From NCBI GenBank assembly GCA_015501605.1, contig JADNRZ010000023.1, positions 558,001-622,000 on the forward strand: 64,000 nucleotides of DNA, read 5' to 3'. Shown here one piece after another: positions 43,104-64,000 of this stretch (position 1 is the first letter of the stretch; each line of letters starts with the position of its first letter). The position numbers and the translations under genes were made by a program. The notes under the pieces were generated by a model. The model searched no databases. It had not been told where the DNA came from and was given only the letters and a program-made list of their open reading frames with translations. Origin of the DNA: Panaeolus papilionaceus. Lineage: Eukaryota > Basidiomycota > Agaricomycetes > Agaricales.

Positions 43104-45776
43104 TCAATTCTCCTTCAACCCCACCTGAGAATCACCGTCATCCTCAAACACCGATTCTCCATATTGGTTCCTAAAGTACACCACATCCCCGTCATCCTCC
43201 ACAAACACGCATTGTGTGAACGATCGCCAAAGCGCTTTCAATACAGGCTGTTTCAAGTTAAGTATTCGCCAGTTGACCCAGCGGCAGTGTGCAAATTCGA
43301 TCAATAATCAGAAGGCAATATACCCAAAAACCGTCAATTTCTCCCTCGATACAAACGTGATAACAAAAAACAAAACACGCACCGTCGAATCATAGGCGTA
43401 GTGTTCTCCCAAAACTGGCTTGATGCATTCCGTAATTTTAGGCAAGTAGTCTGGATAAAATGGGAAACGAAGACGCCGGGGTGCGGGTCGAGAAATAGCG
43501 CATGGCATGAGCGCGCATGCAATTCCATGCCATGCCATGCATTTTTTAAGGGGGTCGGGGAAGCAAAAACAGAACAAAAGGAACGGTGAACGAACGATCC
43601 ATCAATCAGTGTTGAGCAAGACAGACAAGGAAACAAACTCTCACAAAATGGGGCACCTGGGAACAAGTGGTGCGCGACGTGATCAGTGCTGATCTATATC
43701 TGGAAACGTTAGTTTATTTCTGGGAGAGTATTTAGGGCAGATGATAAGAAAATAAGAGAAGATGGAGAAGAAAGAAGAAGATCTAGAGCAAGTAAGGAGA
43801 AGGAGAATAGAAACAGTGGAAGCGACTCGAATTCCATTCAAGGGGCGATGGTTGAAAAAGTGCTTGAATCATCACCGGTAGTAGTACAGGTAGGTGAACG
43901 TGGAACGAGGGTACTGACGTTGTGTAAGAGCACCCGGCCTACCCACCCAAAAAGGGGCCGATCTACAGTCGCGAGCGCGCCTCTTGCGAACGTCCACTGC
44001 CTCTGTATCGAACAGAAATAAATTGACTCTAGAGCCCAAAATATCAGATTCAAACGGGCAACTCACGGCTCGGTAATACGGTATTGTTGGATCACTGTGC
44101 TGTAAATACGTGAACATGACCATCCTGTAAATAACGTAGCAATTCAATTTCAATTCAGTCAAAATTCGGCATTAAAATATCTCGGAGAGTTGTCGGGATG
44201 GGGCTTTCAACTTTGACAATGACATACCAATTGTGCGCAAACTGGGGTTTGTGTGGGTACAGTGAGGTCACAGGATGGATGGACGAGAGCCGTTAGAAGT
44301 GGGTTAAGGAACGGCAAGGGCGCGGCATCGAAGAAAATGGTGCACGGCGTCAGAAACAGCGAAGAGAAGGAGTTAGGGAGAGGGGAACTCGCCAACCAAG
44401 GCAAAACGTAATGCGCTATCACCTCCCAGCACCCCTTCGCGCGGGCGAACAGGAACAGAAGACAGAGCACGACAAGAATAGAGACGTTCGAAAGTATAAT
44501 CGCCTTCCCTGTAGGTAAGTAAAGGAAAGGGGTGAGACTCGATTCGTCCATTTCAAATCCAGGGGGGTAATAACGACTGATAAGAAGCTGAGAATAGAAT
44601 GAATACTTACGATGTTTGGGTTGGAAAAGCTTCGAGGATGGGAGGTAGTGCTGGATTGCAAAGTTTATTAACATTGGAATCCTGATGAGATTCGAGGGAT
44701 TGGAGACGGCAAGTACGTACGCTTGTCCAGATTGGATACCTGGGATTCCCTTTACGATTGTGTCTGAGCGCAAGAGTATAAGTAATGACGTCCTTTGCAA
44801 GATATCAAAGAGAGCATACAGAAGATAAAGCTGGAACCCACTAAAGCAGACCGCAACGCGTTAGCGCTGGTTATCCACCCCCCTTACGGGATAAAAGAAA
44901 AGGGAAGATCAACACATACAGAAACTGTCGAATAAACATCTTGAAAAGCGTAAACGCAGGCGTTTCCTCGATCAGCTCAACGTAATCCATCTTAACCGCC
45001 ACCTTTCCATCGGGGAGCCTAAGATCATTACGCGTCGGCGGTATGTATGTCTCATCTCGGTCGAGGTTGTTAGTCGATTTCTGGAATGGAGTTCAGCACC
45101 AATGTACGATGAACAGGCTAATGCAGCACAGAAATGGAGCAGAATCCAATGGAAAGAGTGCGTATGAACTAATAACACTTACGTGGTGTGTGGCGTGTGT
45201 TACGCGCCAGGAATAGTATGGAGTTAGAACGACGCTGTGGAGGACCAGTCCGATCACGTCGTTTACCCATCGTTTTGAAGAAAGAGCGCCGTGACCTGCC
45301 TAAGATGAAAGCTGCGAGTTAAGTATGGGTCCAGGCCTTCATAGCTGGTAAATTCAAGCGCACTTCGTGACCTGAGCACAACCATCTAAGTATCAAGTAT
45401 GATGGAAGTCAGAAATTATAATCCTACCCAGACACCATATCCCAGCGAAAGCGAAACCCTGCCATCCCCAGTACAAGAGCCATAAAATTGGGCGTACCAG
45501 GCCAGTCAATAACGCAGAAACAAGAGGGAAAGTAGCAGTAGAGTTGACTATGCAGTCGACGTAGACATCGATACGAGTCCCAAGATAGAAAAAGATGGAG
45601 GTTATTGCCAAGTGGCGAGCGATGTAACAAAAACTGGTGATGGTCGATCGCTCGAGGAGATGTCTAGGGACGGCGTCGTGAACATCTTTAAGTGAGATAT
45701 TGGGCGGCTCAATCTCCCCACGTCGTTTGCGCTCTTCGTATTCAGGGCCGTCGTAGAAAATTTGGTACCAGTGCAT
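43104..45776 (-). CDS. FAD2: Delta-12 (omega-6) fatty acid desaturase
   Basis: Thirteen exons: 45776-45428, 45371-45364, 45299-45183, 45080-44920, 44840-44717, 44650-44611, 44508-44393, 44241-44228, 44124-44067, 44002-43919, 43693-43645, 43450-43383 and 43247-43104. Phases all close to 443 residues, the usual length. The three di-iron histidine boxes are present: HEAGH, HATHH and HVAHH. Other family blocks: IFYDGPEYEERK start, SLKDVHDAVPRHLLERS, PSSKLFQPKHRKAI, TYLQHSDPTIPYYR, GALATVDRPLFGWVGR, PKITECIKPVLGEHYAYDST, ALWRSFTQCVFVEDDGDVVYFRN. It converts oleate to linoleate in ER phospholipids. Box 1 is encoded partly by an 8-bp microexon (GHE), and the intron after PWL seems to use a GC donor (gcgagt). 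N-terminal start at 45776 gives a slightly longer head than usual. Confidence 0.94.
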
Positions 45777-47687
45777 GGTGTGCTAAGCAGGACTTTAGTT
45801 CAGGAACGAGCCCAAGGGCGGGCGTATCGGTTTATATGTATAAACCTCCATGGTGCAGTTCAAATGCGGTAAACTTGAAGTAGGGAGGAATCGAGAGAGG
45901 TTAACGAAGTATCAATGCATTGCGAAGCTGTTGCCACGCCTCCAAGCAGGGTCGGAAGGAGCATTGATGAAACAGATACGGAATGGTGAGCGCGAAAATC
46001 GAAGACCCGGCTATCGCTGTACCTTATTGGAAGGCGGGGAGTGGAAACATTTAGGACATATAATACATTATATTTGAGTCTTGTATTGAGATATGGGTGA
46101 CGATGGTGGCGTATTCAATTGAATAGGGATTTGCAGGAAGCTCGTTTGGATACGATCCACCTGTGGCGCGATATCGAGAAAAAGATAGTTCCAAGTGGGA
46201 GAGGTATTGAATTTCACTTTACAATTTAGGCAACGTCCATGAAGAATATCAAACGATACGGTGCTTTAGCACGCAGCTGATCGAGGGTTAAGTTATTACC
46301 TTGCTCGTCGGAGCTGGAAGAAAAGATTTAGCACGGGAACGTATTTTCAGCGTCCAACCTGCGTATTACTCGTATAGATGGGGTTGAAAGAATTGTGAAT
46401 TGGCGCTAAGCCCATTATCCGTGGAATTTTCGAAGTCTGAAGCGGCGGAAATGATTCTCAAATGGGATACAATCACATACCTCATTCTGAGATCGCTGGG
46501 GAGATAATTATCGGAGCTTTGCACCACGAGGAAAAGTGTGGAGTGTAAATCGATGTCACCCCCCTCACAATACATTCTCGGGCGCGAAGATAGATGATAA
46601 ACGATTATTTGACCTGAGAACGAAATATGTGTTAGCGGTGATTTAGCAACACATTCGCAACAAAGGTTATTCCTTCGCAGCCAAGGAAATTGCATTTGTC
46701 GCGTCACCTCTTCACTGACAACGGGGACGAGTAATGCGACCACAAGTCAGCATCCCCACATATAAATGAGACGACTCCACTCGTCCGCCGATAAGGAGAG
46801 GAGCTACTGACGCGTAAAATAGGGGCCAATAGCATCAAATCCATAAGAATCCAGAATTAAAGAAGTCGAGGCAATGTTGTAGCAATTGAAGCAACAGACA
46901 GATAAGAGAACAAGCTGCTCACCAATCCATTTGATAGACCTATTACTGTCTCACATGATGCTCCGCCTCTCGCATGTGTCTGGACACTACAAACGCGTGC
47001 ACTGCCTCCTCTAAGCAGAATGCCTTCGCGAGTTAGCTGTTAACGCCGCCGTCGCTTCGATCTTCGAACGGCATGTCGGTATTCAATAGGCCATTTCCGG
47101 ACCGACAGACGTCATGAGATAGTCCCGTTATATGGACACTAAGAATGCAAACGGAGAACAACACACTGACATTTGGTGAAGAAGTGAGTGGTCGACAGAT
47201 GTTAGATGTTATGCAGCTCACAAACTGAGATGTTTCACGATCAACTTCACATGGACTAAAAGATCTTTTGGGGTGAGTCTTGAGTCCTGGGAGGGAAGTT
47301 TACCATCAAAAATCGCCTATATATCTGTTATAACCCAGTGCGCACCTTGAGCATCTGGCTCGAGTGTTCCCCCTCCAAATCGCACCCGAAGACTCAGTGA
47401 GATGCTACGTATACATGTCCCAGTGGTCTTTCTTATTTTCCTGACAGACAATTCGCTTTAGGTAGACAGTAATTACCACCTTCAAGGTCAGTTTACTAGC
47501 GTAGTGAACACTGGAAGCAATCGTGGTCGAGGTTGAGAGCAAGGGGCGGTCTTGTCTGAGTCTTCGACTGATGGATGCCGAGCGGGCCTGGTATCGGAGT
47601 TCCAAATCCTAAACAGGCAGGAGCAACGGGAATCGCATAGCACTCAACCAAGACCTCCTCCTCCGCCATAATATTGTCATCGCACCT
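45777..47687. other. intergenic region between divergent FAD2 and AP1M
   Basis: Holds the promoters of the desaturase (minus) and the adaptor subunit (plus). Several short frames occur, none with a family motif. Confidence 0.35.
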
Positions 47688-49439
47688 ATGGCCAGTCTCA
47701 TAGCCATCCTAGATCTCAAAGGGAAACCCCTGATTCAAAGGTCATACAGGGACGATGTGCCGCCTTCATACGTGGAACGATTTCTGCCTCAAATTCTTGA
47801 GATCGAGGAGGAAGGACAACAGGTTACACCTTGTTTCTCCAGCCAAGGAATTAATTATATGCATATCCGACACTCAAATCTGTATTGTGAGTTTATCTTC
47901 TACAAGTGAACTTATGATGGTAAGATGTTGATATCATGCACAAAAGTACTCGCATTATCAAAACGCAACAGCAACGCATCCGAGATCATTATCTTCCTAC
48001 ACCGACTCGTTCAAGTCCTTGTTGAATATTTCAAAGAACTCGAGGAAGAGAGTATCAGAGACAACTTTGTTATCATCTACGAGCTTATGGATGAAATGAT
48101 GGACTTTGGATATCCGCAGACGACAGAGAGCAAGATCTTGCAGGAATACATCACGCAGGAATCACACAAGCTGGAGATCCAGGTTAGACCGCCCATGGCG
48201 GTCACGAACGCCGTGTCCTGGAGAACGGAAGGGATTAGATATAGGAAGAATGAGGTGTTCTTGGATGTTATTGAGAGTGTTAATATGCTGGTACGTCTAT
48301 TTACCCTTCATATCCTGAATGCTGCGATTGATGACGACGTGTTAATCCCTAGGTAAACGCCAATGGAAATGTTGTAAGATCAGAGATTTTGGGCGCAGTC
48401 AAGATGAAGTGTTATCTGTCCGGAATGCCAGAACTGCGGTTAGGATTGAACGATAAAGTTATGTTTGAAAGTACAGGCCGAAGTATGTTCTCCTCTTGCT
48501 TCTTCCTCTGCATACCCTCTAATGACGACTCAAAAGCTGCACGTGGAAAGGCTATTGAAATGGAAGACGTTAAATTCCACCAATGTGTTCGACTATCACG
48601 ATTTGAAAATGACAGAACCATCTCTTTCATCCCTCCTGACGGCGAGTTCGAGCTGATGTCATACCGCCTCTCAACGCCAGTTAAACCCCTCATCTGGGTA
48701 GAAGCAGCCGTGGAGAGTCACAGAGGAAGCAGAGTGGAGTATATGGTCAAGGTCAAGGGCCAGTTTAAGAGGAGGAGTACGGCGAATAATGTAGAGATTT
48801 ATGTCCCTGTTCCTGATGATGCGGATAGTCCCAAGTTCAGAGTGAGTTCAGCCATTTAAAAAAATCTAAATATGCCTTATCTCATATCTTTTGCGTAGGC
48901 TTCAACAGGAAGCGTCCAATACGCCCCAGATAAATCCGCCTTCGTCTGGAAAATTAAACAGCTAGGAGGAAGTCGCGAATTCCTGATGCGCGCACACTTT
49001 GGCTTGCCTAGTGTGAAGAGTGGTAAGTGCACTATTTCCTTTCATACCTGATGGTGTCGTTCTCCTCGCAATTTGACTGACATATTGCCCACAGAACAAG
49101 ACTTTGAAAAACGCGCACCCATAACCGTCAAATTCGAGATTCCATACTTCACAGTATCAGGAATTCAAGTCAGATACCTCAAAATTGTAGAGAAGAGTGG
49201 ATATCAGGCGTTGCCTTGGGTGAGGTACATTACGCAGAACGGTGATGACTATAGGTTCGTATTTTTCCCTCATTTACCTCCCCTTCCTGTCCAAGCTTCT
49301 GTCCGCTTTTTACTCGTCCTTTTTCTGTTACCCACATCCTCTTTCCCTCATAACTTCTACCTTCATGCTGACTAAACCTCATCCCAACAGCTTAAGAACA
49401 GCACTAGAGAAGGGCAGCGCTCCCATCATGCCTATGTAG
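47688..49439 (+). CDS. APM1: AP-1 clathrin adaptor complex, mu subunit
   Basis: Exons 47688-47886, 47947-48290, 48353-48482, 48537-48841, 48899-49022, 49095-49254 and 49391-49439 give 436 residues. The N-terminal longin-like domain (MASLIAILDLKGKPLIQRSYRDDV, HSNLYLLALSKRNSNASEIIIFLHRLVQVLVEYFKELEEESIRDNFVIIYELMDEMMDFGYPQ) is followed by the mu homology domain (GIRYRKNEVFLDVIESVN, PPDGEFELMSYRL, TVSGIQVRYLKIVEKSGYQALPWVRYIT). Sorts Tyr-based cargo at the trans-Golgi and endosomes. Conserved along its full length. Confidence 0.97.
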
Positions 49440-49840
49440 ATTGCCAGCTTGCGATGCGTGGTGTATTTGTTTCCGTTTTTCTCCTTGTACGTATGAACGC
49501 CCATACCTATATCATCTACCTTGTTGCACTTTTGGGGACCACGGTTGGCGATCTAAGAGTAACAGTGTTGAGTGCAACGCGATCTTGCGCTTTGTTTTCG
49601 ACTCTTTCGTGCTCAGCTGACCTTTTAGACCTGTGTAGTGTTGGCGTTGGCAATTGGTAGGTGTACTTCAGCCTTTATACCCCAGCTCCCTTTTTGCTTA
49701 ACAGTCGTTTACAGATGGTGAACGTGTATTTAAAAGGCCTATGCTCTTCAAAGGTGGAGACCTTGTCTTGTCGCCAAGGAGGAGAATTCACGAGGATAGA
49801 ATGGGAGCCTGAACAAAACCTCATCTCCTTGTACAGGATG

Positions 49841-49848
49841 TATAAAAG
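49841..49848 (+). promoter_or_regulatory. TATA box with CT-rich leader
   Basis: TATAAAAG is followed by a CT-rich leader and an ATG at 50000, the layout of a strong fungal promoter. Confidence 0.45.
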
Positions 49849-49999
49849 CTGGCTGCTACTACATCATCCACATCACCAAACCCTTGAACCTTCTACTGTC
49901 TCTTTTTTTCTCGACTTCCGAAGAACTGATAAATCTCTCCAACTCTCCTTAATTCTTGAAATCCAGCCTCGACTAAAGACAGTACTGTTTGACATAGTT

Positions 50000-50182
50000 A
50001 TGCCCAAGGATGCATCTGGCGAGAGGTCTAAGACTAGGCCCCTGGGCTCCCTAAATGAGCGGAGGACCCCGAAGGGTATCCGCGCTTCACTTTTGAACGC
50101 CCCTTCGCTTCAGCAAGCACAGGAGGCAATGCCGCGCCATTCACTGCGTTTTGACCCAATCCGGGGCGAGAGACGCAAATGA
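50000..50182 (+). CDS. Short basic protein, possibly a truncated gene
   Basis: An open frame of 60 residues (MPKDASGERSKTRPLGSLNE…) starts about 150 bp after a good TATA box, with the start codon in a plausible context. It is basic and lacks known motifs. The MPKD/basic start resembles the heads of small fungal nuclear proteins, but nothing further supports that. It may be the remnant of a gene whose body was lost. Region 49440-49840 holds no gene. Confidence 0.3.
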   Translation: MPKDASGERSKTRPLGSLNERRTPKGIRASLLNAPSLQQAQEAMPRHSLRFDPIRGERRK

Positions 50183-50849
50183 CACAATACGGAGGACGAC
50201 GTCTAATCCCAGCCCTGACTCTCATCTTCGAGATTGAGCCCGATGTTTTCTGGTTTGGTCTTGAAATCATGGCTTCCACCTCAAACTTGGGGTAGGATGT
50301 TGATTTTGATTGGGTCTCTTCCATGATTCATGTTTAAAATTTGTGCTGGACACTGATTATTTTCTCAAATTTGTTTTATCGCCGCTCCTTCTCAGACCCT
50401 ATATAACTCATACATCCTTTCAACTACGTCCTCTCTCTTTTTCTATAGCCAATTTCAACTGAACCTATCGTCTTAAATAAAACACGATCACCGTCACTCT
50501 TTCAATTCTTCATGTACTTATCAGTCCAACTGTTAGTCAGTCTTTACTTTCCTCTCCTTTCGCTGCTTTAAATTTCGTTCCTATGCTCGACATTCCTCGT
50601 CATTGCGTCGAACGATTTCCGTATTCCTCCTTCAACATACATTGTATTAGCCCGATGTCAATTGCAATAGCTTGTTGAATGTAGAAGATACCCTGCTGAA
50701 TTAAATTACGTGCAATGTTAGAGTCCTCCCAAATTTGACAGTTCCGGATCCAGCTTCGAAACAACCTCGAAAAAAAAAATGTACTCTCGCTATTTGCGCA
50801 GACATAATAATAGAGGGACGAGAGCAGTAAACCAAAGCAAGGCATAGAG

Positions 50850-50965
50850 TGGGACAGCTCTCTCTATTATTTTTTGGACAATGCTTTGGCCTTTCATCCC
50901 GCCTCGCGTTTCCTAGTGAACGAATTGTCGCATATACCCAATTAGGCAATTTGGCCCCTGTGGGC
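50850..50965 (-). repeat. duplicated flank, inverted copy of about 20715-20835
   Basis: The minus strand here matches the plus strand near 20715-20835, marking the edge of the duplicated C2H2 block. The rest of 50183-51174 has no gene. Confidence 0.65.
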
Positions 50966-51174
50966 GCGGGTGATGAAAGGGGCCTTGCTCTTTCTGGGAC
51001 AACGCGAAGGATGGGCAGTACAATTAGCCCCTCTAAGGGATACAAAAAGGTTTGCATTGATAAAAGAACGCGTCGATGGGTCCTCTTCTTTACCTTTAAC
51101 TATCACCACTGCTATCACTATCCTAACCCCCAACGTCTGTGACGTCTCCATCTCATATCACAACTACTATACCA

Positions 51175-51808
51175 ATGCCTAGAGATACCACTAAACCTGT
51201 TACTGAGAAGCCAAAGAGAAAGAGGGTTGTGCGTCCACTAATAATCGTCATTTTCGTGTCCTTGCCTGACCGATGTTTTAATGTAGACCCCCGCGTGCAA
51301 GTTCGCAGGATGCACCTTCACAGCGAGAACGCGGAAACTCGTGGACCAACACGAGCAATCAGTGCACAACCCCTCGATAATCCCATGCCCAGCAGTCGGA
51401 TGCAGTTTTAAATGTCTCGCTCCAGACGTGTTTGCGCTTCATTATAAAACACATCACCCCACCCCAGCCCAATCTCCACAAGTTGAGCAGCCCGAGATCA
51501 AGACTCTACCAGAGACCAGACCACAGTCGTTACAGCCTTCCTCACAATCTGCACGCACTGTTTCCAAATCCATGTCCGTTTGTTCTAAGCCGTATCAAGA
51601 AAATCTGCCAACCACCCCCCTCTACTCCACGCCCAGCCCGAGCACTTCGACCTGGAGTCATTCTTGGGGCCCTATCAAGACCAACTTGAAGAAGGGTCAA
51701 CAAATTTCGAGCTCGAGCTCAATTTCAAGCCTCTCGAAGGTGCCATACCCTCTTCCAATCTTTGCGGGCATCCGGGATTGGGACTGCATGACGATCTATA
51801 AGGCTTGA
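51175..51808 (+). CDS. Two-finger C2H2 zinc-finger protein
   Basis: Exon 51175-51228 (MPRDTTKPVTEKPKRKRVV, with a KPKRKR nuclear-localisation-like run) joins in phase to 51287-51808, giving 191 residues. Two C2H2 fingers follow: CKFAGCTF…HEQSVH and CPAVGCSF…HYKTHH. The remainder is a Ser/Thr/Pro-rich tail ending GIRDWDCMTIYKA. Probable DNA- or RNA-binding protein of unknown target. The paralogue at 20513-20728 is truncated. It lies 0.5 kb upstream of the finger-less C2H2 derivative on the same strand. Confidence 0.78.
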
Positions 51809-51915
51809 AAATCCGGAACCTTGAAGACATATATCCTCCATCTATTTTACCACCCGGTTCTGCCTCAGGAGTATTCCTAGAAATTTGAACCTTAAATTCG
51901 TCATTTGTAGCTTTA

Positions 51916-51941
51916 TAAATTAAATTAAATTAAATTAAATT
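51916..51941. repeat. (TAAAT)n microsatellite
   Basis: Five tandem TAAAT units in the 3' flank of the C2H2 gene. The remaining part of 51809-52350 is the promoter block shared with 19850-20110, including a tataag-type box near 52312. Confidence 0.7.
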
Positions 51942-52350
51942 ATACATCTATTTAGCCATTAAACCAGTCGCTCATTCAAAATTACGATAAGTTATAATGG
52001 GTTCAGATCGCCGAGCTGGTTTGCCACATGTCTGAGTTCGATGTGATTGCCAAAACCCTGTTTCATTGACCGAATCGAGTAATTTTAGTGCTACAATGCG
52101 AGGCCAGTCGCTCAATAACTTACCCCATAATGGCGAAATCAATCTCGGAAAAGCAACAAGTCTGGGGGAGGGCTGATCCCCAAAACCGCTCGCAACCCCT
52201 TTCTCAGTGGCTGGTGGTAGTGCGGGCGCTTGGACAAAACGGTCAGGAGTACAATGATAGCAAAGCGCTCGCAACTTGCAGAAGGAACGCATTGTTGGGG
52301 AGAGTCCCACATATAAGAAGGGGCAAAGAGAGCTCACTCTTACCACAATC

Positions 52351-52878
52351 ATGGATCGCAGTTCCAGCAACGAAATCAATCATTACACCCAGGAGACCGA
52401 CGCAACCGTACGTGTGACCGACAAATCGCCACCGTCCCAGCACAAGGGCAGCTCTCGTTGCCATACTCAGAGGAGGTTGACGAAACCGTATTCTCGGAAG
52501 GGTTCCGTTGCATCAAAGGACGAGACAACCAGTCCTCTCGACATGCAGTCCTGTGCACTTCCAGCGTCTAAAACTCCTTCCTCTCGACAATCCTCTGTTT
52601 CAAAGGCTCGCAGCCGCGTCGGCAAAAAGGCCAATCGAATCAACGCCAGTACTGGCACTGGCACGGCACCTACCGTAACAGCATCAGCCCCAGCGCCTAT
52701 CTCCGTGCCTGGCTTTAAATTGGCCAAGGCTCGTGAGATCGCTGCTGATCAACTTAAACCCCTTAAGAGCGACTTCCTTTGGTTCACCTCAGGAAACCCA
52801 CCTCATTTCCTTCCGGAGCTCGCGACGCCAGAGGAATACCAAGAAAAATTTGGTTTGGCTCGTAAATACAGGGATTGA
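52351..52878 (+). CDS. Finger-less derivative of the three-finger C2H2 family
   Basis: An open frame of 175 residues in a single exon. It starts like the family (MDRSSSNEINHYTQETDATV, compare MDRRSLYEKIKYRYVQEPDGS) and shares their promoter. It then jumps straight to the Ser/Lys-rich region (CALPASKTPSSRQSSVSKARSRVG) and the conserved end (LATPEEYQEKFGLARKYRD). All three zinc fingers and both introns are gone, yet the frame is open from start to stop. It is either a decayed copy that happens to be open or a shortened protein able to compete with full-length relatives through its C-terminus (inference). Confidence 0.6.
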   Translation: MDRSSSNEINHYTQETDATVRVTDKSPPSQHKGSSRCHTQRRLTKPYSRKGSVASKDETTSPLDMQSCALPASKTPSSRQSSVSKARSRVGKKANRINASTGTGTAPTVTASAPAPISVPGFKLAKAREIAADQLKPLKSDFLWFTSGNPPHFLPELATPEEYQEKFGLARKYRD

Positions 52879-53436
52879 ACTTGATGAAATTCATGTTCGC
52901 CTATCCTGGATATTATTCCCACCTGATATGTACTAATAGTCCCATCATAGTCGCTCTTATCCTACTTCAATTGTTCTCGCATCTTGTTTTGCTTGTGCTC
53001 TCATCTTGCTTCACTTCTCTCTCATCTTCCTATTTGACTTACACTCGCCTTTACTACCTACAGTCATTCATGTGATATATTTCTTGTATGTTATGGTCAA
53101 CTCTCTTATGATTTATTATATTTTACGCTCAAAAGAATTCAACCGATTCGAGACACTCATAAACAGTTAACATAAAAGCGCGCGCTTCGAAAAATTGCAA
53201 GGAGGCATTTGTGATGTTATTTCTCCACATTGAAAAATAACACCGACATGTTACCTACTTTACAACAGTCACAAAAACTACATATTTTCTGGAATACAAA
53301 TCGATGCGCTACTACCCCAATGACCAAACCCTAAACAGCATCCATAACCCAAACGTGCCTCCAGCCTGACATCCAAACCAAAGAATCAAAAGAAGCCAAA
53401 GAAAATGAAAAAATAGAGAGACCAAAAAGATTCCCC

Positions 53437-54123
53437 TCAAAGATAAAACATCGTATCCTTCAACTTCTCACTGACCCCCCCGCCCCAAAGCCCCTCCCCC
53501 TCCTTCATAACCGCCTCATACTGCTCCTCCCCGCCACTCGTAACCGATCCACCACTCGAACTAATACCCTGGAGCAATGGATGCAAATAGCATCGACCAC
53601 GCTCACATGCAAGGTCAGCGTAATATGCGGGAGAGACCAAGCTGACGGCCTTGGTGGCGCGGGCGAACAGGTAGCTGACGTCGTTAGTCAGTCCTTGGAG
53701 TGCATCTTGCGTGAACCCGTAATCGTCGTGAACGACGTAGTAATGCGTCGGCTTGGTAGAGCCTTGGAGTCCAGCGTGCGCTAAGTGAATGAAATACGTG
53801 AGCAAACGATAAAGAAGACAGCGATGAAATCGAACCTTGAAGGAAAAAATCGAAGTGATAAATAGACGTGACACCCCGGTCGACAACAGTACCGGGCAAG
53901 GGGTTCTTCGTCCTATCCGCATCCTCATCTCTCGTTGGATAAAATCGTGTATGATGTCGTTTCCCCTAATAAACAGACGTCAGAAGAACCACAAGGCGAG
54001 TCCAATACAGCCCTTACACAAATCACAATCGTCAACTTGGGAGTGTAAGTTCCCTTTGCCGTATCAAACTTCCTAAAAGACTTCTTGATCTTGACTAATT
54101 CATCCGCGACGACAATGCTGAAC
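53437..54123 (-). pseudogene. AGO: Argonaute, 3' part (separated by transposon insertion)
   Basis: Exons 54115-54018 (rest of the split exon), 53965-53836 and 53780-53437. They encode the C-terminal half of the PIWI domain: FSIVVADELVKIKKSF, GKRHHTRFYPT, NPLPGTVVDRGVTSIYHFDFFLQ, THYYVVHDDYGFTQDALQGLTNDVSYLFAR and SLVSPAYYADLACERGR, ending FYL. The Asp of YYAD stands at the fourth catalytic position (His in many Argonautes). With the 5' part and one copy of the 8-bp duplication, all phases close to 953 residues, so no other damage is visible. As placed, it has no promoter or start and cannot be made together with the 5' part unless the element is removed. Region 52879-53436 shows no gene. Confidence 0.93.
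54116..54123. repeat. Target-site duplication, left copy
   Basis: TGCTGAAC, identical to 58965-58972. An 8-bp duplication is the hallmark of hAT transposition. Confidence 0.95.
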
Positions 54124-54135
54124 TAGTGTTGCCGC
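54124..54135 (+). repeat. hAT terminal inverted repeat, left
   Basis: TAGTGTTGCCGC, the exact reverse complement of 58953-58964. Matches the T/CAGTGTTG-type ends common in hAT elements. Confidence 0.93.
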
Positions 54136-54260
54136 AGCTCAGCTCAGCTCAGCTCCAGCTCGCTCGCACCGGCTCAGGGATCTGACAGCTCGGAGCCAGC
54201 TCCGGAGCCACCAACAGGGCTCTGGTTTCCAATCAGCTCAGACCTGAGCTGGTTTAGCTG
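54136..54260. repeat. Subterminal AGCTC-type repeats, left end
   Basis: Several tandem and scattered copies of AGCTC/GAGCT and GGCTC within about 125 bp of the left end. In hAT elements such short subterminal repeats bind the transposase. Confidence 0.7.
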
Positions 54261-54327
54261 ACAGCTCATGACAAATCGTCCATATCAGGCAATTTTAGTA
54301 ACTAAGATAATCTAATTTACATCAAGT

Positions 54328-57300
54328 CTACTCATTGTCCTCTCCGTGGCGCTCTGCTGCAACTACGAGATCACTTATGAAAGATTCAACATCATGTGCA
54401 CGAAAAGAGTCGGCTTCCTTCCCTGCAGCTGCCTCTAAGTATTCCAATATATCTTGCGAAGAGCTACCAACTGAGAAATCCAATCCTCGGCCCTGGCGGA
54501 AGGAGAACTTCAAAACTTGTAGTATTTCCATCAAACGTGTGTCGATATTATTGCGCCGATTTGTCATGGTCTCCTTAGCTGATGAGAAAACCCGTTCACA
54601 AGGGACAGCAGAGCCTTGGATGGGGAGGTAGTCCAGGGCAGCACGAAATAGGGTAGGGTAACGCAGTTGATTGTCCTGAAAGGTTGTCGTTAATCTCACA
54701 ACTATAGCCATCATCGAATGAAGAGTGTACAAACCTGCCAGAACCTGAGAGCCGACTGAGAGGTGCTAAAGGATGTGTCGAGGAGGTAAGCGTTGAGTTC
54801 CTGATCAAGAGGTTGTGTTGTCTGCTGTTGCGCCCCACGTGATTGTGATATGCTTGGCGCTCTTGAGCCAAACACAGCCGCAAGACGTGCTGTGGTGGCA
54901 AATGGATGGGGTGCGACTCCTGGATGTTCGCGTGAGCGAGATGGTGTGTACCGATGTGCAGTGGGAGCAGAGTAATTAGAATGTAAATCAGAATTGCGTG
55001 CCTTGGCTTGCTGGATATGTTGATTGTAGTATGGTGACAGCTAGTTCATCGAAACGGAGAGAGTTTGTAATGTCAATTTCAGCATAAAAAGATCACGAGA
55101 AATGTTTACGAACCAATTCCAGGACTAGTTGCTTCGTTGGAGCGACTTTATGTGGCGCACACTTCTCAAAATATGTGAGCTTTAGTTCTGGGTTTAATAC
55201 TGACACATGAATGATTAGATCCGATATAAGATGCACAACAAAAAAGAATTCAACGTACCCATTGCCATCACATAAGCAGGGACATCGTCGATGCGGTTAT
55301 AGTAGTCTTGAAGCTTATCGATGCCATCTTGAATGACAGTAGCCTCAGAGGCATTTGGATCCTCTTTGCGGTACTTTGTCTGTAGTTCACGCCAGCGGCT
55401 AAACATGTCATTGAAGAATTTGATGGCATATCCTAATGTTGGGGTCTTCTCTGTCGAAAGTGCCTGCTGAAAGTCAAATGGAACCTGTTGGGAAACGTGC
55501 AAATCACTGAGATCACTAATAAGAATATCAGTCAAACTAAAATACATACAAAGAGTATCTCCAGCGCCGTCGTCAGTGCCTGCCAATCATTCTCTGTGAG
55601 ATTATGGCGAAGCAGTTCTGATGAATCAGTCCCATTTAACATGTACTTTATGACCTACAAAGATGGTGACGGTAAGTGCATGCTACTTGACTTTCAGAAA
55701 AAGAAATTTCGCATACCTTTTCAAGCTGTAATGCACGCAAAATCATGTAGAAGGTGGAGGACCAACGTGTGTCGACATCACGAAGAAGTTGGAGATTGAT
55801 GTTTTTGGCTTTGGCCGCTTCTTTAAAGGCTAAGCGACGTAATGATGATGCACGAAACTAAAGGGTTTAGATATTAGTGATACTCGTTGCACATTGATAG
55901 ATAAAATATACTGACAATACGGATCAAGCACCGAAGTTTGGCAATTGGGTCTCCGCTGACGTCATCGAGAGGTGTAGCGTTGAGCCCATTGAATTGTTCT
56001 GCAGCATAATCAATATTGGTGATAGCTGCGAGAACAGCCTTGCATGCAAGGTTCACGATGTGCGGGAAGCACCTGCCATGAATGAAGATGTCAGTGAAAT
56101 GATTAGAATATGTAAAATATAACATACCGAATCCTACGCTTTACGCTATCGAACGGAATGTCTCGGCTCAGCATCTCCTCTTCCAGATGCACCATGAAAG
56201 TATCATTATTGCTTGCATTATCTAATGTTACCCAGCCAAGCTAAGACAAAAACAATGTCAATAATCATTGTCGACAGCTAAGATAATTAAATATACCTTT
56301 TCTGAAATGCCAATGCGATCAAGAACAAATATGAAGGCATGCATCAGGTGTTCGCCTGTGTGCGTTCCAGGAACGTGATGGAAACCAATCAAATCAGAGC
56401 GCAGTTGTAAGTCGTACTGTATGCCATTGTGAGTGTTGACCGTTTTCGCCTCAATCCAATGTGCTGTCACCGCCATGAAAGGCATCAAGTTTGGGTCGCT
56501 CCACAGATCCATTGTTGTCGAGATCTTTCCAAGAGCATTCTGGTAGTATAATAATTTCCAACCTTAGCTGAGATAATCCGATGATAGAACAAGGGCGTAC
56601 CTTCATATCTTTCTCCAATTCCTCAAGGTGTGACGACCAGACCTCTGATAAGTGGTCACGGACCTTGGTGCGATGAGGGATGTCAGCATCAGATAAATCC
56701 TCACGCAGCATCATAAAGATGCGGCGCAGATATGGACTATCAATGACTTTGAGCGACTGACAAAGAGAAATGAGAATACTGTTTAACTCTGGACAGATAA
56801 GCTCACCTGGTCATCAGCGACAATGAATTCGGTGATGGCATCTAGAAAGGCCTCGGGCGAGAATGAGGTTTGATGGCTAGGAGGCTGCCCACTGTGAGCA
56901 TCAGTGGTCGCACGCCCTTTCTTTTGGCGATGTGCATTGACGACCTCTTGCAGAGATGAAATGGTGATTGGAATCTTGAACTTGTCACAAGCGTCCACCC
57001 ATTCTCCAAGATGTTCCTTGGCAAGGTGCTTGCGTAGCGGCGACGTACCTGTCCCGAGTGCAAAAAACTTTACAGGTAATGCATCATCGGAATCATTGTC
57101 AACGGGTGAGGCGTTGCGCTTGACCCTATAGAATAATTGAGCATGAAACATAGATATTGAGATGATGAAATCATGTACTGGCAAAATATGCATTCACGTG
57201 TCAATCCAACCTTCTTGTAAAATGTCCAGACGTCTCTCGCTCCTGTTGACTTAGGTGCAGCCTGAGCTCGGCGAGGTGAGGACGAGGATGCATGATGTGT

Positions 57301-57933
57301 GCTGTGACGCCCAATCCTTGGTGAGCCTGGAGAGCGATGGGAGCGAAGAGGTGAAGAGGAGGTAGCAGCAGGGGTCATCTGTTGGATCTGATTACCCTGT
57401 GCGTTGCGAGTTGGGGGGATTGCTGTATTGGCTGAGCTGCTGACAGGGTCTGTGGTGGCAAAGGTGACACGGTTTGGGTGGTTTGGACGTGACTGTGCAT
57501 CGTTTCCGGTCTGGAATATATTGCCTGGGCTGTTCATGGTTGAGCTATCACCTAAAACTGCTCGTGAATGTGCTATCATGAGGAGATCATACAACAAACA
57601 TACCACTGGCATCTTGACCTCCTCGGTGAGGCGTCGTTGGCATTGGAGGTAGAGTGATGTGAGCAGAAACGTTTGCGATTCCGACATCGGATGGTTGCAG
57701 ATGAGATTGGGAGGGAGCACAGTGAGTCTGGCTTTGAGGTTGTTGAGGTGTCGGTGCATTAGTGGGTGCTACAAAAGCCAGTTAAGTGCCTCGTATAGAT
57801 TACAGATGAGAAATATTCCTGTACCTTGCACCTGAAATGTAATTTGTGCTGCACCATTTGGTAGAGCTGTTGTGGTTGCTGGGCGTGTCCGAGTTGCTCG
57901 TCCTTGTCGTGATGTGCTGGTGCCGCGAGGCAT
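54328..57933 (-). CDS. hAT-family transposase with BED-type finger
   Basis: About a dozen exons; the first is 57933-57825 (MPRGTSTSRQG…), later borders are approximate, and the stop is at 54328. Order of parts: a Ser/Pro/Gln-rich head; a BED-like zinc finger (VWTFYKK…ECIFC, then SPLRKHLAKEH); the RNase H-like core with the first catalytic Asp in TTMDLWSD and the second in TLDNASNN; an insertion with RIRCFPHIVNLACKAVL; and the hAT dimerisation block LDYLPIQGSAVPCERVFSSAKETMTNRRNNI near the end. I saw no stop or frameshift within the exons, so the element may be autonomous. It cuts and pastes DNA and needs the terminal repeats flanking it. Confidence 0.9.
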
Positions 57934-58849
57934 GATGAAGAGGGGATAAACGTTAGTTCCTTACCAGACTGCATATTGATGTTTTATATGTCGTTGTCAT
58001 TGGCCGAAACAGGGTTGGTAGCCAATGCCCTCAAAGAGAAGGCCATTGCTGCTGTCGGTAATCTAACAATTCGACCACACAACAAGAAAGGATATGAAAA
58101 TATGGATTTTTCTGAGGAGCGGGGAGCCGGAACTTGAAAAGAATTAGTGAAACATCTAAAATATGGAGTTGGACGTATAACTCACCTGCGGCGTTGTGTA
58201 TCTCTATTACACCACAAAACGTTGCACCTTACCCTGCAATGAGAGTCAGAGCAATCAACCAATCACAACAGGCTCAGTGAGCACACTCCCAGATCTCAAG
58301 AACAGTCGGTATCATAACAATAAGTCCATATCAGTCCACAAACGATCATAAGGCTGTCGTTGCTGGTCAGGAGAGGCCATGATAAAGGCGGAACCAGGAT
58401 TAAAATTACGCATGCATTATTGTTGAATAAAATTCAATGTGAGTCATTGTGCCTCATGTATTATATTATATAGATGGTGGTGAGACTGGAGAGGATTTCA
58501 GACTGGTATTCCAGCTGAGGACGGTGCACGATGATGATAGCTTGTGGTAGTCAAGAGAGAGCAGAGAAAGGGAAGTTCGATCACAACTCATCATTTCCAC
58601 GGTCAGTATCATACGAAGCAGTGACTATTCATTCAATATCTACCTGAAAATCAACTGGAATTTTAATTCGACAGTAGAATACTCTAGGTATGCCTATCAG
58701 CGTTGTGAAACAAAATAATTTATTTGTAGGACAGCACACAGAAACTCAGAATCCAGCAGCCAATGACGAGACCATGATGTGGTCTGACCCAACTTCCAAA
58801 ACCGGACATGAGCCATGAGCTCAACCCGCTCAAGCGTTAGATAAGCGGG

Positions 58850-58952
58850 TTCGCACATGAGCTGAACCCTTTGGAGCTGAGAACCAGGAACACCAGCTCA
58901 GCTCAGCTCCAGGTGGCTCCGCTCCGGCTTGGAGCCCGCTCTGAGCGAGCCA
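58850..58952. repeat. Subterminal AGCTC-type repeats, right end
   Basis: Repeated GAGCT/AGCTC and GGAGC/GCTCC units up to the right terminal repeat, mirroring the left end. Confidence 0.7.
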
Positions 58953-58964
58953 GCGGCAACACTA
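58953..58964 (-). repeat. hAT terminal inverted repeat, right
   Basis: On the minus strand TAGTGTTGCCGC, identical to the left end over 12 bp; beyond that the ends differ. Confidence 0.93.
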
Positions 58965-58972
58965 TGCTGAAC
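58965..58972. repeat. Target-site duplication, right copy
   Basis: TGCTGAAC, identical to 54116-54123. Confidence 0.95.
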
Positions 58973-61683
58973 TGTCCTTCTGAAACACCATCACGATAGA
59001 CAATGATACGAGTCGGAAGAATCTTGTTACACGACCTGAACAGCGTTAGACGTTCCACCATCATCTCAGCGAGGTCGGTGACCATCTACACGACGACAAC
59101 CCGTTATTTTACTGAGAACAGAAAACGCAATTGGGGCTTACCTCTGCAGTGCTCTGCTGAATCCTAAGGCTCGCAGGGAACTGAGCCAGATCACGATCAA
59201 TGCTTGCAACGACAGCAGCAATAGACGGTGTTCCTTTGACGCTTCCAGGTCCAGGGTGAGTAACATCAATGCCGACCATCATCGTCGGCTCCGACCTGAT
59301 GACCTTCATTCGACTATCTTCTAGGACGTGACTGAAGGTGGGGCGTATATAGTCAGCAAGGCGAACATGAGTGGAGACTTGTAAGCGTACTTGACACCCC
59401 CAAGCTTCATGTTGAACTTCAGCGCCACATTGGCGAAGTACGAAGCTAAATAACAGTTAGAACAGGAGTATATGCGCCAATACAAGGTCATACGTACGTT
59501 GCTGCTTGCGTATTTTACCCGATTGGACACAGACGGACGCTCAAAGCAATGTATCAGCCACAAAACCGAGGTCAAGTGGAAGTAATACTCACGTATACCA
59601 TGTCTCATGTCAAAAAGCGCCTTGACCTGAGCATAGACATGCTTATCACCGTTGGAAAGGATAACAAGAAAGATACCAGGAGGACTCTTAAGATTCTTCC
59701 TGATGCATTCATCGAGAGTAGAAATGACCTGGCTCCGAATCACATCTCTCTGACTCTTGGAAGGAAGTTTGACCTCCACTACAGGAGGATCAACCCTCTG
59801 AGCAGCCATACCACTTTCCGTACACATCTTGATAAAGCTTCGTACTGTCTCAATAAGCTCTGGGTCTGTCGCAGACGAAAACTCGTCCCTGTTGTTATCC
59901 TTGATGAGGACAACAGCCATGTTATTGATCGTGGCTCCCTTTTTGAATTTGACGTTCTGGAGGTTCCAGCTCGCTCTTCCGTCCACAGAAGTGATACTTG
60001 TTCTATATTGCACCTTCGGCGTGTCCAGAATCCGAGCGGGGACGACGGTCATCTCGTTCTTGATAGCGATACCGAACGCTTGAAGCTGTGCTGATGCACC
60101 AGGTCGGAATCCCAAGCAATCCAGGCCCTTTGTTTCGATGCTAGAGGCGTTGACGTTGGGAGATTTGGCCGCCGCACGGATCATTTGCGCTGTATGCTCA
60201 TCGGTGAGCTTGCCTCTGAAGGGCTGGTTGGGCAAGATCGTGCATGTCTCGGCAGGGATTAGGGTCGGTTTCTTGGCACCGACATCCACCAGCTGCATCT
60301 CTGGGTACATGAGCTTGATGTTGTACTCTTCGAAGCTAATATCAATAACGGTATCCAGAGGGATTGTAATGCAACGCACTCTTTCGGAAGTAATCCTCCA
60401 CAGAGATCTCAGAGCGCAACTCGTCGCAATAAAATTTGTGTTGTTGAGCATTGAGGTTGGCAGTCGTTTTGACCGTCTTCTTGTGACCAAGGTGGGTTTT
60501 GATGCGAAGACCTTTGACGAAGGCGGTCATACGAGCACCGAAGCTCGCCTTACGGAATGCCATCATCGCTGCAGCTAGGTTCCCCTCTTGGTAGAAGGCG
60601 GTCGTGCAGACTATTGAAATGCTTGAGTGTACGGTCATAAGGAAGCTGAGATTACCCACCGTTGACATTTACCATAAGCTGGTTATGAGCCGGGCGAACT
60701 GAAGAGTAAAAACCCTTCCATGCCTCAAGCCCTCCTCCCAAGTCGAAAGGGGTCACTGCAGATTTGAAAAAGAACCGGTTGCGACCTATCACGACGCCTC
60801 CACCAGCCGAGCGATTGGCATGAGCTGCGAGAATAATCTGTAACGCAGCCAACCTTGATGAAATGTCCAGATTGCGAAATCGCAGGTCTCCAGAGACATG
60901 GCTACATCATTATGAGTAAAAAGTAAGGAAGATTAAATAGGAGAACATACATACCTTTTCAAACCTTCGAGATCAATTTCCTGAACATAAGTGATGGACA
61001 GGGTATACTCCTTGGACTTCGTGGTCGGTCCAGGCTCATCCTCGTCGTAAAGAAGGACACGAATACTGAGGGGCAGAGGAAGTGGTTTTGCCGAGACAAG
61101 CTTCGCAGAATGATCATGCGCGACATTACCCTTCAGACCATAGCTCTTCCACTGATGACTTTCTTCCGCGAGCTGGAAAATGCGTCGCTTGACGCGTCGT
61201 ATAGCAGTCGCAGGGGAGATTTCTACGGCGTACTCCAGAACGACACCCTTTCCAACCCTGACTGCGAAGTAGTTTGATCTTACTTTAATCTCTCTCCCGG
61301 CAGTACCAAATCCAGGTTTGGAAGGCAGATCTTGCGGTGCAATGGCAAGACGGCCCATAGCAGCCACAAGTTGATCTTGAGACGCGTCTTGTAAGCGAGC
61401 ATCCATGTTGACTGGACCAGGGCGGTAAATTCTGAGCAAAATAATGTCAGTTAGAGTAAAAAAAATAGCATATATGCGCGTAATACCCCTGTTGGTTGTG
61501 TCCGCCTTGACTTCCACCACCATAGCTATCGCGATTTGGGTAGTCGCCACGTCCACGATCACCTCCTCGGGACTGGTACCCACCGCCTCCACCACGCGAC
61601 GGACTTCCTTGGTAGCCACCATGCCCACTGGGTGGGCCTCCTCGACTCTGACCTCGATAATCACTGCCACCGCGCTGGGACAT
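58965..61683 (-). pseudogene. AGO: Argonaute, 5' part (RNA-silencing effector, disrupted)
   Basis: Exons 61683-61487, 61431-60955, 60901-60660, 60610-60380, 60327-59593, 59539-59498, 59445-59391, 59331-59142 and 59085-58965 (interrupted). Order of parts: an RGG/Gly/Gln-rich head (MSQRGGSDYRGQ…), the N domain, the linker and PAZ region (QEGNLAAAMMAF … FYCDELRSEISVEDYFRKKYNIKL), the PAETCTILPNQPFRGKLT segment, MID, and the start of PIWI. Two catalytic Asp are present (MMVGIDVTHPGPGS and IIVYRDGVSEGQFS). In the family Argonaute loads small RNAs and silences transcripts or transposons. The insertion follows GQFS; reading on into the element adds about 20 foreign residues before a stop at 58903-58905. 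The truncated product would lack the C-terminal third of PIWI, including the last catalytic residue. Confidence 0.94.
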
Positions 61684-62665
61684 TGGAGCGCACAACGGCA
61701 AAGAGATGCAGTACGCGTTGATAAAGATAGACTAAGAGGACTGTTATTCAGACAAAATTTGTGCCCTTGGAGAACGGGTTCAAGGATATGAGCGATGTCC
61801 TCAAAGGGTACAAGTCAAAGCAGAATAACAGATGAGAAAGAGTCAGGTTTTCAACGACGCGGTTTAAATGCAAACAGGACCGGCCAAACAGGACCACATT
61901 ATTAATATCGGCGAAACGCGAGACATTCCTAGTTCCTCGTGTGTCGTCGTCTCCCGTCCCGTGAGTAGGTATGTACCACTGGCGCCAGCTTCAAGCAGAC
62001 GAGTTTCTTGGGCAGCTCTTGATTATGGATAAAATCGATAAACTGCCAGATACCGCGATAATTATTAAACAGTTCCAAGACCAACATTCAGCGCTCAGCT
62101 TCCAAACCAGTTCTCTGCAAGTCCATCACAGCCCATCAGCCAGAATATGAACCCGTCTATATCCTCCGGAAGAACCATTGCAAACAAGGATATCCCAAGA
62201 GAAACTATGGCGAAAAACGTAGCCTAATTGAACAGAGGAAAAGCAAGTCTCGGGAGTAGAAAGATCGGCTATAGGACTAAAACTAAAGCAGAGTCGACAG
62301 TTTCAGGAAATACATTGAAAATGTATGAGGTTTCAGAAAATATGTTTGAACATAATGGTAGCCAGGCAAGACGTGGGCAACACACGGTGCCTGCCAAACA
62401 CACAACCGGCATTTGCCGAAATCCGGGTCCAACCTTTTACAAGTCGAAAAACGGTGCATGGTAAAAGTAGGGATTTTGTATTATTCATAAGTTATATTTG
62501 AATGGGATACATTATGCGAGAAAACTATGATATATATGGCCCAAGAGACTGACAGAAAAAGAATTCACAAAATTATTGTGTCGCTGGTCGGAGCCGGAGT
62601 GATAATAGAGAGGATATGGTGCAATTTCGACGCATACTAGTCGGAGCCTCGATACATAATATCCT
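61684..62665. other. intergenic, nothing recognised
   Basis: Argonaute promoter side and 3' flank of the transporter; one unmotivated open frame at 62228-62464. Confidence 0.35.
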
Positions 62666-64000
62666 CTAAATCTTTTGTGTCTTGCGCTCTTGGACTAGGA
62701 GCGTCCTTGTGGCACCAAAAAAAAAGACCGATGCAATCACCAATGTCTGTATTTGATATATCACAATGTCGAGTTCAGCGAATATTCGACCCGGAATAAC
62801 CAGACCAAATGACTCACCCCAGAGAAGATGATAGGGCGCTTCCAGTCAAAATGGTCTCCCAACAGCGCTCCCTGAACAGGGGCTGAGCCAAGAGACCCAA
62901 AGCTACTCAGTGCTAGCGCCAGTCCCGTTCTTGCTCTGAAAGATTGAATGACAGTGTTAATCTGGAAACCGTCTAATGTAATAGTGGAGGCATACCCCGT
63001 TTCACCAGGATGACGCGAAAGTGATGCAAGCGAAGCAACGGCCAAGGAGAGCCCTGAGATCAGATGGTCGTGAACACACGCTCAAGGGCTAAGGAGGCGA
63101 TGGAGACGTACATGCACCGGAGAACAACCCATAGATAATACTGACGGCCACCAGCGAACCTTTATCTTGTCTAATACAAGAGATTAAAAATCACTAACAC
63201 TTGGATCTACATAACTTACACTCCAAAAACGGCGAAGATAGAGGCGCCAGTGATGAGCGTACAGGGTACGAACACGTTTATTGGTCCGTAAACGTCTGCC
63301 AGATGATTCGCCCCGACGCGCCCAATCGAGCTCAAAGCGTTCAGGATGGCGATCTGTACAAAGGGGAGATTTAGGTCAATGCTAACAGAGGTCTGAAACG
63401 ATTGTACTGACGGAATAAAAAGACAGGTTGGGGTCAATTTGATGCTGAATGGCATACAGCTGAAGGTAGATCACTAAGTCACCAAAGTTAGTCGACTCCC
63501 GGGATAGTTCAAGATTTAAACGAGAACATACAGGGGAAGTATAGTCCAAATGTAGAAACGAGTGCACTGTTGTGTCGATGAGTACTTTATTCACGCACGG
63601 GTGACCGTTCACTCACCCGAAGATGGCCAACAAGTACTGGGGATCAGAGAAGAAGCCCTTGATTTCCGCCGCTGGCCCCTTTGTCTGAACGTTCTTGTAC
63701 GCTGACCTAACCAACGTGTTTCCAATGACAAGGAATCCAAGAACAAGATAGCCACTGGCCCTGACCGTATCACCGAACCCATGAGTTTTGATAAGATTAC
63801 TAATTCAGCGAGATCATAATAAACCAAATTAGCGGCAGTTGTGTAGGATCCTTGATGAGATAGGTACCACGCACTTTATCACTAAGTTAAAGAAGGTTGA
63901 GCTCAGATCGAAAAAAGGAAAGACTGGAGGGGTTACATACTAATTGGAAAAATGACCGCTCCAAGGGAGCTTCCACTCATGACAATACCCGTTGCGAGCG
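62666..64000 (-). CDS. MFS transporter, monocarboxylate (MCT/MCH) type, 5' end beyond window
   Basis: Exons readable on the minus strand: >64000-63941, 63881-63875, 63799-63617, 63566-63532, 63473-63412, 63353-63220, 63170-63118, 63053-62996, 62935-62818 and 62746-62666; phases close throughout. Motifs: GIVMSGSSLGAVIFPIMINNLI (TM4 region of MCT-like proteins), a hydrophobic helix ASGYLVLGFLVIGNTLVRSAYK, a cytosolic loop, then ALSSIGRVGANHLADVYGP (MFS loop motif) and late helices ending FSGTLVIASVFFFGATRTLLVQERKTQKI. Probably a plasma-membrane carrier of a small organic acid; substrate unknown. One exon is only 7 bp. Confidence 0.9.

Follow-up and report, generated by a model that had tools for sequence, protein, structure and literature searches.

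A probable recent insertion of a hAT transposon interrupts an Argonaute gene of Panaeolus papilionaceus

One of about eight Argonaute genes of the dung mushroom Panaeolus papilionaceus carries a hAT transposon within its coding sequence. We are highly confident that this element, which has an open transposase gene, inserted recently in exon 9 and presumably disabled a single paralogue whose loss would be buffered; this reading is drawn from one assembly. The insertion would have proceeded by ordinary cut-and-paste transposition, duplicating 8 bp of the exon. The window analyzed here is a 64-kb stretch of DNA (C16:558001-622000) from the 71-contig, 50.85-Mb assembly of this species. A published genome of the species, probably the one to which the window belongs, is from strain CIRM-BRFM 715 (accession JADNRZ000000000; PMC8480192), and the words monokaryon, dikaryon, and haploid are absent from the accessible main text describing it (PMC8480192).

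RESULTS AND DISCUSSION

Structure and copies of the hAT element

The element occupies 4,841 bp (54124..58964), and its transposase is encoded on the minus strand, in the same direction as the Argonaute gene. hAT elements have short terminal inverted repeats that start with TAGNG or CAGNG. The left repeat, TAGTGTTGCCGC (54124..54135, plus strand), begins in this manner and is matched exactly, at 12 of 12 positions, by the inverted right repeat (58953..58964, minus strand). Both ends lie flush with a copy of the target-site duplication TGCTGAAC (left, 54116..54123; right, 58965..58972), which has the 8-bp length of hAT duplications. Elsewhere in the 64 kb this octamer occurs at two plus-strand and two minus-strand sites, a scarcity indicating that its presence immediately at both termini of a 4.8-kb unit is no coincidence. 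An AGCTC/GCTCA-rich stretch adjoins the left repeat, and within the 300 bp at either end AGCTC is found nine and four times, compared with two occurrences in the other 4,241 bp. No Rfam family matches the window at the gathering threshold.

A second full-length copy is located at C33:52965-57805, where the same 4,841 bases are present end to end (99% identity). Because the terminal bases are shared by both copies, the borders of the element are genuine, which makes an assembly join improbable. The existence of a 99% identical copy on C33 does, however, suggest a source from which an unlinked hAT sequence might have been joined artificially into the Argonaute gene. We consider such an artifact extremely improbable, since a false join does not produce an 8-bp duplication flush with both ends, and the 36 differences between the copies demonstrate that the window copy is not the C33 copy misplaced. 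Furthermore, there is no third full-length copy among the genome matches listed, which number at least 13 and include two that are full-length (the window copy counted). Partial copies include at least one 1.4-kb piece (96%) and six short pieces that include an element end, as well as at least four internal pieces, three of them on C27. The initial annotation was therefore correct in recognizing a complete hAT element within a PIWI exon.

The transposase gene (54328..57933, minus strand) is modeled with 14 exons that encode 948 amino acids, and it is open throughout in this model. Residues 812-886 match the dimerization family Dimer_Tnp_hAT (PF05699) with an E-value of 4.6e-13 and a score of 49.2 bits, well over the cutoff of 21.4, whereas the match to PF14372 (15.0) falls below its cutoff of 27. 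Several homologues have PF27041/PF27039 alongside PF05699. hAT transposases have an RNase-H-like catalytic core with DDE, and the modeled protein contains TMDLWSD, CFPHIVNL, RWSSTF, and ERVFS as putative motifs. When residues 195-948 were used as the query, at least 39 relatives were found at E <= 1e-20, and the best homologue among the matches listed is 51% identical over 98% of this region. P. papilionaceus itself is absent from the 38 named relatives among the matches listed, which suggests that the transposase may be unannotated in this species.

The interrupted Argonaute gene

The Argonaute gene extends from 61683 to 53437 (minus strand) and is modeled with 11 exons and with host introns of 49-59 nt. 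Without the element and one of the two duplicated octamers, the exons form 953 codons and a stop, with no frameshift or internal stop codon. The protein predicted from the joined flanks matches five Pfam families over their cutoffs, namely ArgoN, ArgoL1, PAZ, ArgoL2, and Piwi (601-905); no separate Pfam family was reported for MID in this protein.

Exons 1-8 and the start of exon 9 (58973..61683, minus strand) encode ArgoN, L1, PAZ, L2, and PIWI to about its middle, and the duplicated 8 bp (58965-58972) come next. The remainder of exon 9 and exons 10 and 11 (53437..54115, minus strand) encode the C-terminus, which ends in LKDTMFYL, and are severed from the upstream frame. The element interrupts codon 764 after its first base, roughly midway through the PIWI match and nine residues after the aspartate of the sequence YRDGVSEGQF. 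Eukaryotic Argonautes have a DEDX catalytic tetrad, for which D682, E723, D755, and D895 are the putative residues, judging by eye from motifs. The first three of these putative residues precede the insertion and D895 lies beyond it.

The joined flanks translate as GVSEGQFS-IVVADELV, with the host frame resuming, and they align without gaps through the junction to a paralogue on C2. Likewise, the Panaeolus cyanescens proteins P0002 and P0003 are continuous through the insertion position. These data bear out the initial annotation in two respects: host coding phase resumes beyond the element to give 953 codons, and the gene is otherwise intact.

With the element in place, the Argonaute frame enters the element for 20 residues and stops after residue 783. 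The product consists of 763 host codons and 20 element residues, the first of which shares one host base. The top match in the protein search, the deposited P. papilionaceus protein BJ165DRAFT_1409108 (P0001, 783 aa; window 58904-61683), is identical to this predicted product. This entry represents a gene model truncated by the transposon and should not be mistaken for a natural short Argonaute. In a comparison with solved structures, argonaute-2 chains were matched over residues 102-766 of P0001. The truncated protein would keep the N domain, PAZ, the linkers, and approximately the first half of the PIWI domain, and would lack the fourth putative catalytic residue together with the C-terminal lobe. 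Such a protein is expected to be unable to act as a normal Argonaute, which would make the allele null or nearly so.

A nearly normal Argonaute would still be made if the element were spliced out as an intron, and spliceosomal removal of Ds from mRNA is known in maize. The scan for splice donors covered the 40 nt preceding the element and its first 65 nt, and that for acceptors covered its final 150 nt and the 25 host nt that follow. Five donor/acceptor pairs in these stretches keep the frame, and an in-frame GT-AG combination exists at the element ends (donor 58962, acceptor ending 54123) whose use would retain 9 extra nt without a stop. However, the end donor GTGTTG scores only 0.72, whereas the 23 modeled donors, from which the scoring matrix was also built, score at least 2.14 and have a median of 6.09. 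The best of the five frame-keeping pairs scores 2.48, yet its use costs 30 nt of exon. The 23 modeled introns are 49-73 nt in length, and therefore an intron of 4.8 kb would be extreme. Moreover, the deposited annotation continues into the element instead of splicing around it. Removal of the element from the transcript thus seems very unlikely, and we favor truncation of the protein.

Other Argonaute loci and the likely effect of the insertion

There are 24 PIWI matches in the genome (22 over the cutoff), and these were grouped by position into eight loci, including the broken gene. Among the seven others, the C2 locus was modeled exon by exon. It is the nearest paralogue of the broken gene, and in this model from DNA it is an open gene of 951 amino acids; there is no P. 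papilionaceus protein for it among the 120 matches listed in the protein search. The genome also yields 28 exon-level matches for RNA-dependent RNA polymerase (RdRP), seven for RNase III, and five for C5-methylase, which suggests that the silencing machinery as a whole is retained. Two of the RdRP-matching stretches, C12:2052473-2054437 (plus) and C12:2065034-2067008 (minus), are inverted relative to each other and lie ∼11 kb apart.

The likeliest effect of the insertion would be the loss of one paralogue that is buffered by other Argonautes, above all C2. The proposal that a silencing gene has been broken by a transposon is accurate insofar as the frame is cut at residue 783. A role of this gene in restraining transposons would be putative, and the proposal does not extend to a loss of silencing, given the seven other PIWI loci that include an apparently intact C2 gene. 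Similarly, the broader interpretation stands as a recent hAT insertion in an Argonaute gene, and not as the finding of one allele of a dikaryon, as the assembly holds a single allele. The insertion may be fixed, allele-specific, or derived in culture. No second allele was found in the assembly, where the only matches to 58965-61700 are this sequence, the paralogue on C2 (69%), and a short stretch on C9.

To place the two genes, a tree was constructed from 20 proteins, comprising the two models and 18 sequences chosen among the protein matches listed. The broken gene groups with P. cyanescens CVT24_003887 (98/94) and C2 groups with CVT24_000256 (98/92). In raw identity, the broken gene is 77% identical to CVT24_000256 and 71% identical to CVT24_003887. 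Topologies that unite the broken gene with C2 alone (p-AU 0.009) or with CVT24_000256 alone (p-AU 0.007) are rejected, whereas one that places CVT24_003887 outside the other three is not (p-AU 0.085). Judging from these phylogenetic relationships, the 952-aa P. cyanescens relative is most likely the orthologue of the broken gene. The topology tests also make it unlikely that the two paralogues arose by a recent duplication within this species.

The host gene could have been decaying, or a dispensable duplicate, before the element arrived. The branches leading to the broken gene and to CVT24_003887 (0.20 and 0.27) are longer than those of the C2 pair (0.10 and 0.08), and a close paralogue, intact as modeled, is present on C2. 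In contrast, the 953 codons are free of frameshifts and stops, the putative catalytic residues are retained, dN/dS is low on either side of the insertion, and the probable orthologue persists in P. cyanescens. We therefore regard prior decay or dispensability as unlikely.

Age of the insertion and CpG decay

Beyond the insertion, the host protein shares 166 of 188 residues with C2, and dN/dS is 0.040. For upstream residues 110-763, the corresponding values are 494 of 654 and 0.053, and dN/dS for residues 600-763 is 0.083. Constraint is not relaxed in the host gene, and it persists in the portion that follows the element. However, dS to the paralogue is near saturation, and this comparison would therefore miss the effect of an insertion only a short while ago.

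Between the window copy and the C33 copy there are differences at 36 of 4,841 positions and no indels; 35 of the changes are transitions and one is a transversion. As many as 33 of these differences are CpG transitions. Changes affect 33 of 398 CpG sites and three of 4,443 other sites (Fisher p 2.5e-33). On the assumption that CpG was the original state, 24 sites have been lost in the C33 copy and nine in the window copy. There is no clear preference for the base before the changed CpG (T in a raw count of eight of 33). Repeat-induced point mutation (RIP) of the ascomycete type, which changes C to T mainly at CpA, does not fit a pattern in which 33 of 36 differences fall at CpG.

The observed/expected CpG ratio is 0.74 for the element, compared with 0.94 for the Argonaute coding sequence, 0.88 for that of C2, and 0.92 for the whole window. 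The host pieces adjoining the element have ratios of 1.00 (536 bp) and 1.14 (687 bp), and the rest of the gene (59500-61683) has a ratio of 0.90; the host gene is therefore not depleted of CpG. Among the 20 individual kilobases examined from 44001 to 64000, the ratio ranges from 0.64 to 1.11, and a low value is not unique to the element, since the kilobase 49001-50000 outside it has a ratio of 0.67. The CpG transitions suggest that the element, or its source, was formerly under cytosine methylation.

The nine CpG losses in the window copy imply that this copy or its source is not brand new, and they could already have been present in the source. The insertion itself, as initially proposed, is probably recent; the differences between the copies, the CpG ratios, and the constraint kept beyond the insertion all fit this, although the evidence gives no date.

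Relation to known systems

The Panaeolus element resembles Ac/Ds of maize, which are hAT elements that create 8-bp duplications and insert into genes, and for which both excision and splicing of inserts are known. hAT excision usually leaves footprints, and precise excision would restore the Argonaute frame. One could speculate that the broken Argonaute gene helps to silence the element lodged in it, which is the sole full-length copy with a complete transposase among the matches listed, such that the break aids escape of the element and excision in a monokaryon reactivates the gene. We consider a reversible, transposon-controlled switch of this kind highly improbable.

Among the Agaricales, MarorhAT-10 and its non-autonomous relatives in Marasmius oreades offer a close likeness, as reported in the accessible text of PMC9674265: a hAT family with a dimerization region, an autonomous member with short derivatives, and CpG methylation of repeats. 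The hAT elements of that species are active, and methylation is low at active source copies (PMC9674265). New insertions were observed directly in M. oreades monokaryons, whereas the Panaeolus case is one static assembly; the word argonaute is absent from the searched main text of that report (PMC9674265). Cryptococcus deuterogattii is likewise a basidiomycete without working Argonaute-pathway genes, as far as described in the accessible text (PMC4778953). It lacks Argonaute, Dicer, and RdRP components (PMC4778953), whereas in Panaeolus one of eight PIWI loci is affected and RdRP and RNase III matches remain. CpG-type C-to-T decay of transposons has been described, in the text available to us, for basidiomycetes with Masc2-like Dnmt1 (PMC4352252). 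Panaeolus shares this transition bias in transposon copies, but it is seen in one copy pair, compared with genome-wide in Microbotryum and two rusts (PMC4352252).

The Panaeolus case is a well-supported example that combines known hAT activity, CpG decay, and RNAi-gene loss, and it involves no new mechanism. Possibly, it is an instance of a defense broken by its own target. No paper on Argonaute in Panaeolus was found, and no earlier report of a transposon insertion in an Argonaute gene was found in a search of titles and abstracts, mostly of open-access papers. The allele provides a sequence-defined, naturally occurring knock-out candidate for one Argonaute paralogue, and the element responsible belongs to a class that such Argonautes may control. 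With a likely orthologue intact in the sister species and C2 modeling as intact, the roles of duplicated mushroom Argonautes become testable, as does the possibility that losing one Argonaute frees hAT elements. In addition, CpG differences of this kind are a possible marker of past methylation and could be scored in transposons throughout the genome.

The second full-length copy

The transposase of the C33 copy differs from that of the window copy at 13 amino acids, and one of these differences is a stop at residue 896. Because this stop lies beyond the dimerization domain (812-886), the C33 copy may still work. At its locus (C33:52889-57878), the copy is without an 8-bp duplication of its own and lies flush between 76- and 73-bp inverted repeats of another element family, at the center of the palindrome that they form; these repeats are flanked in turn by the 9-bp direct duplication GCTCCACTT. 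A palindromic, insert-free relative, ∼100 bp in length, is present at C16:544351-544451.
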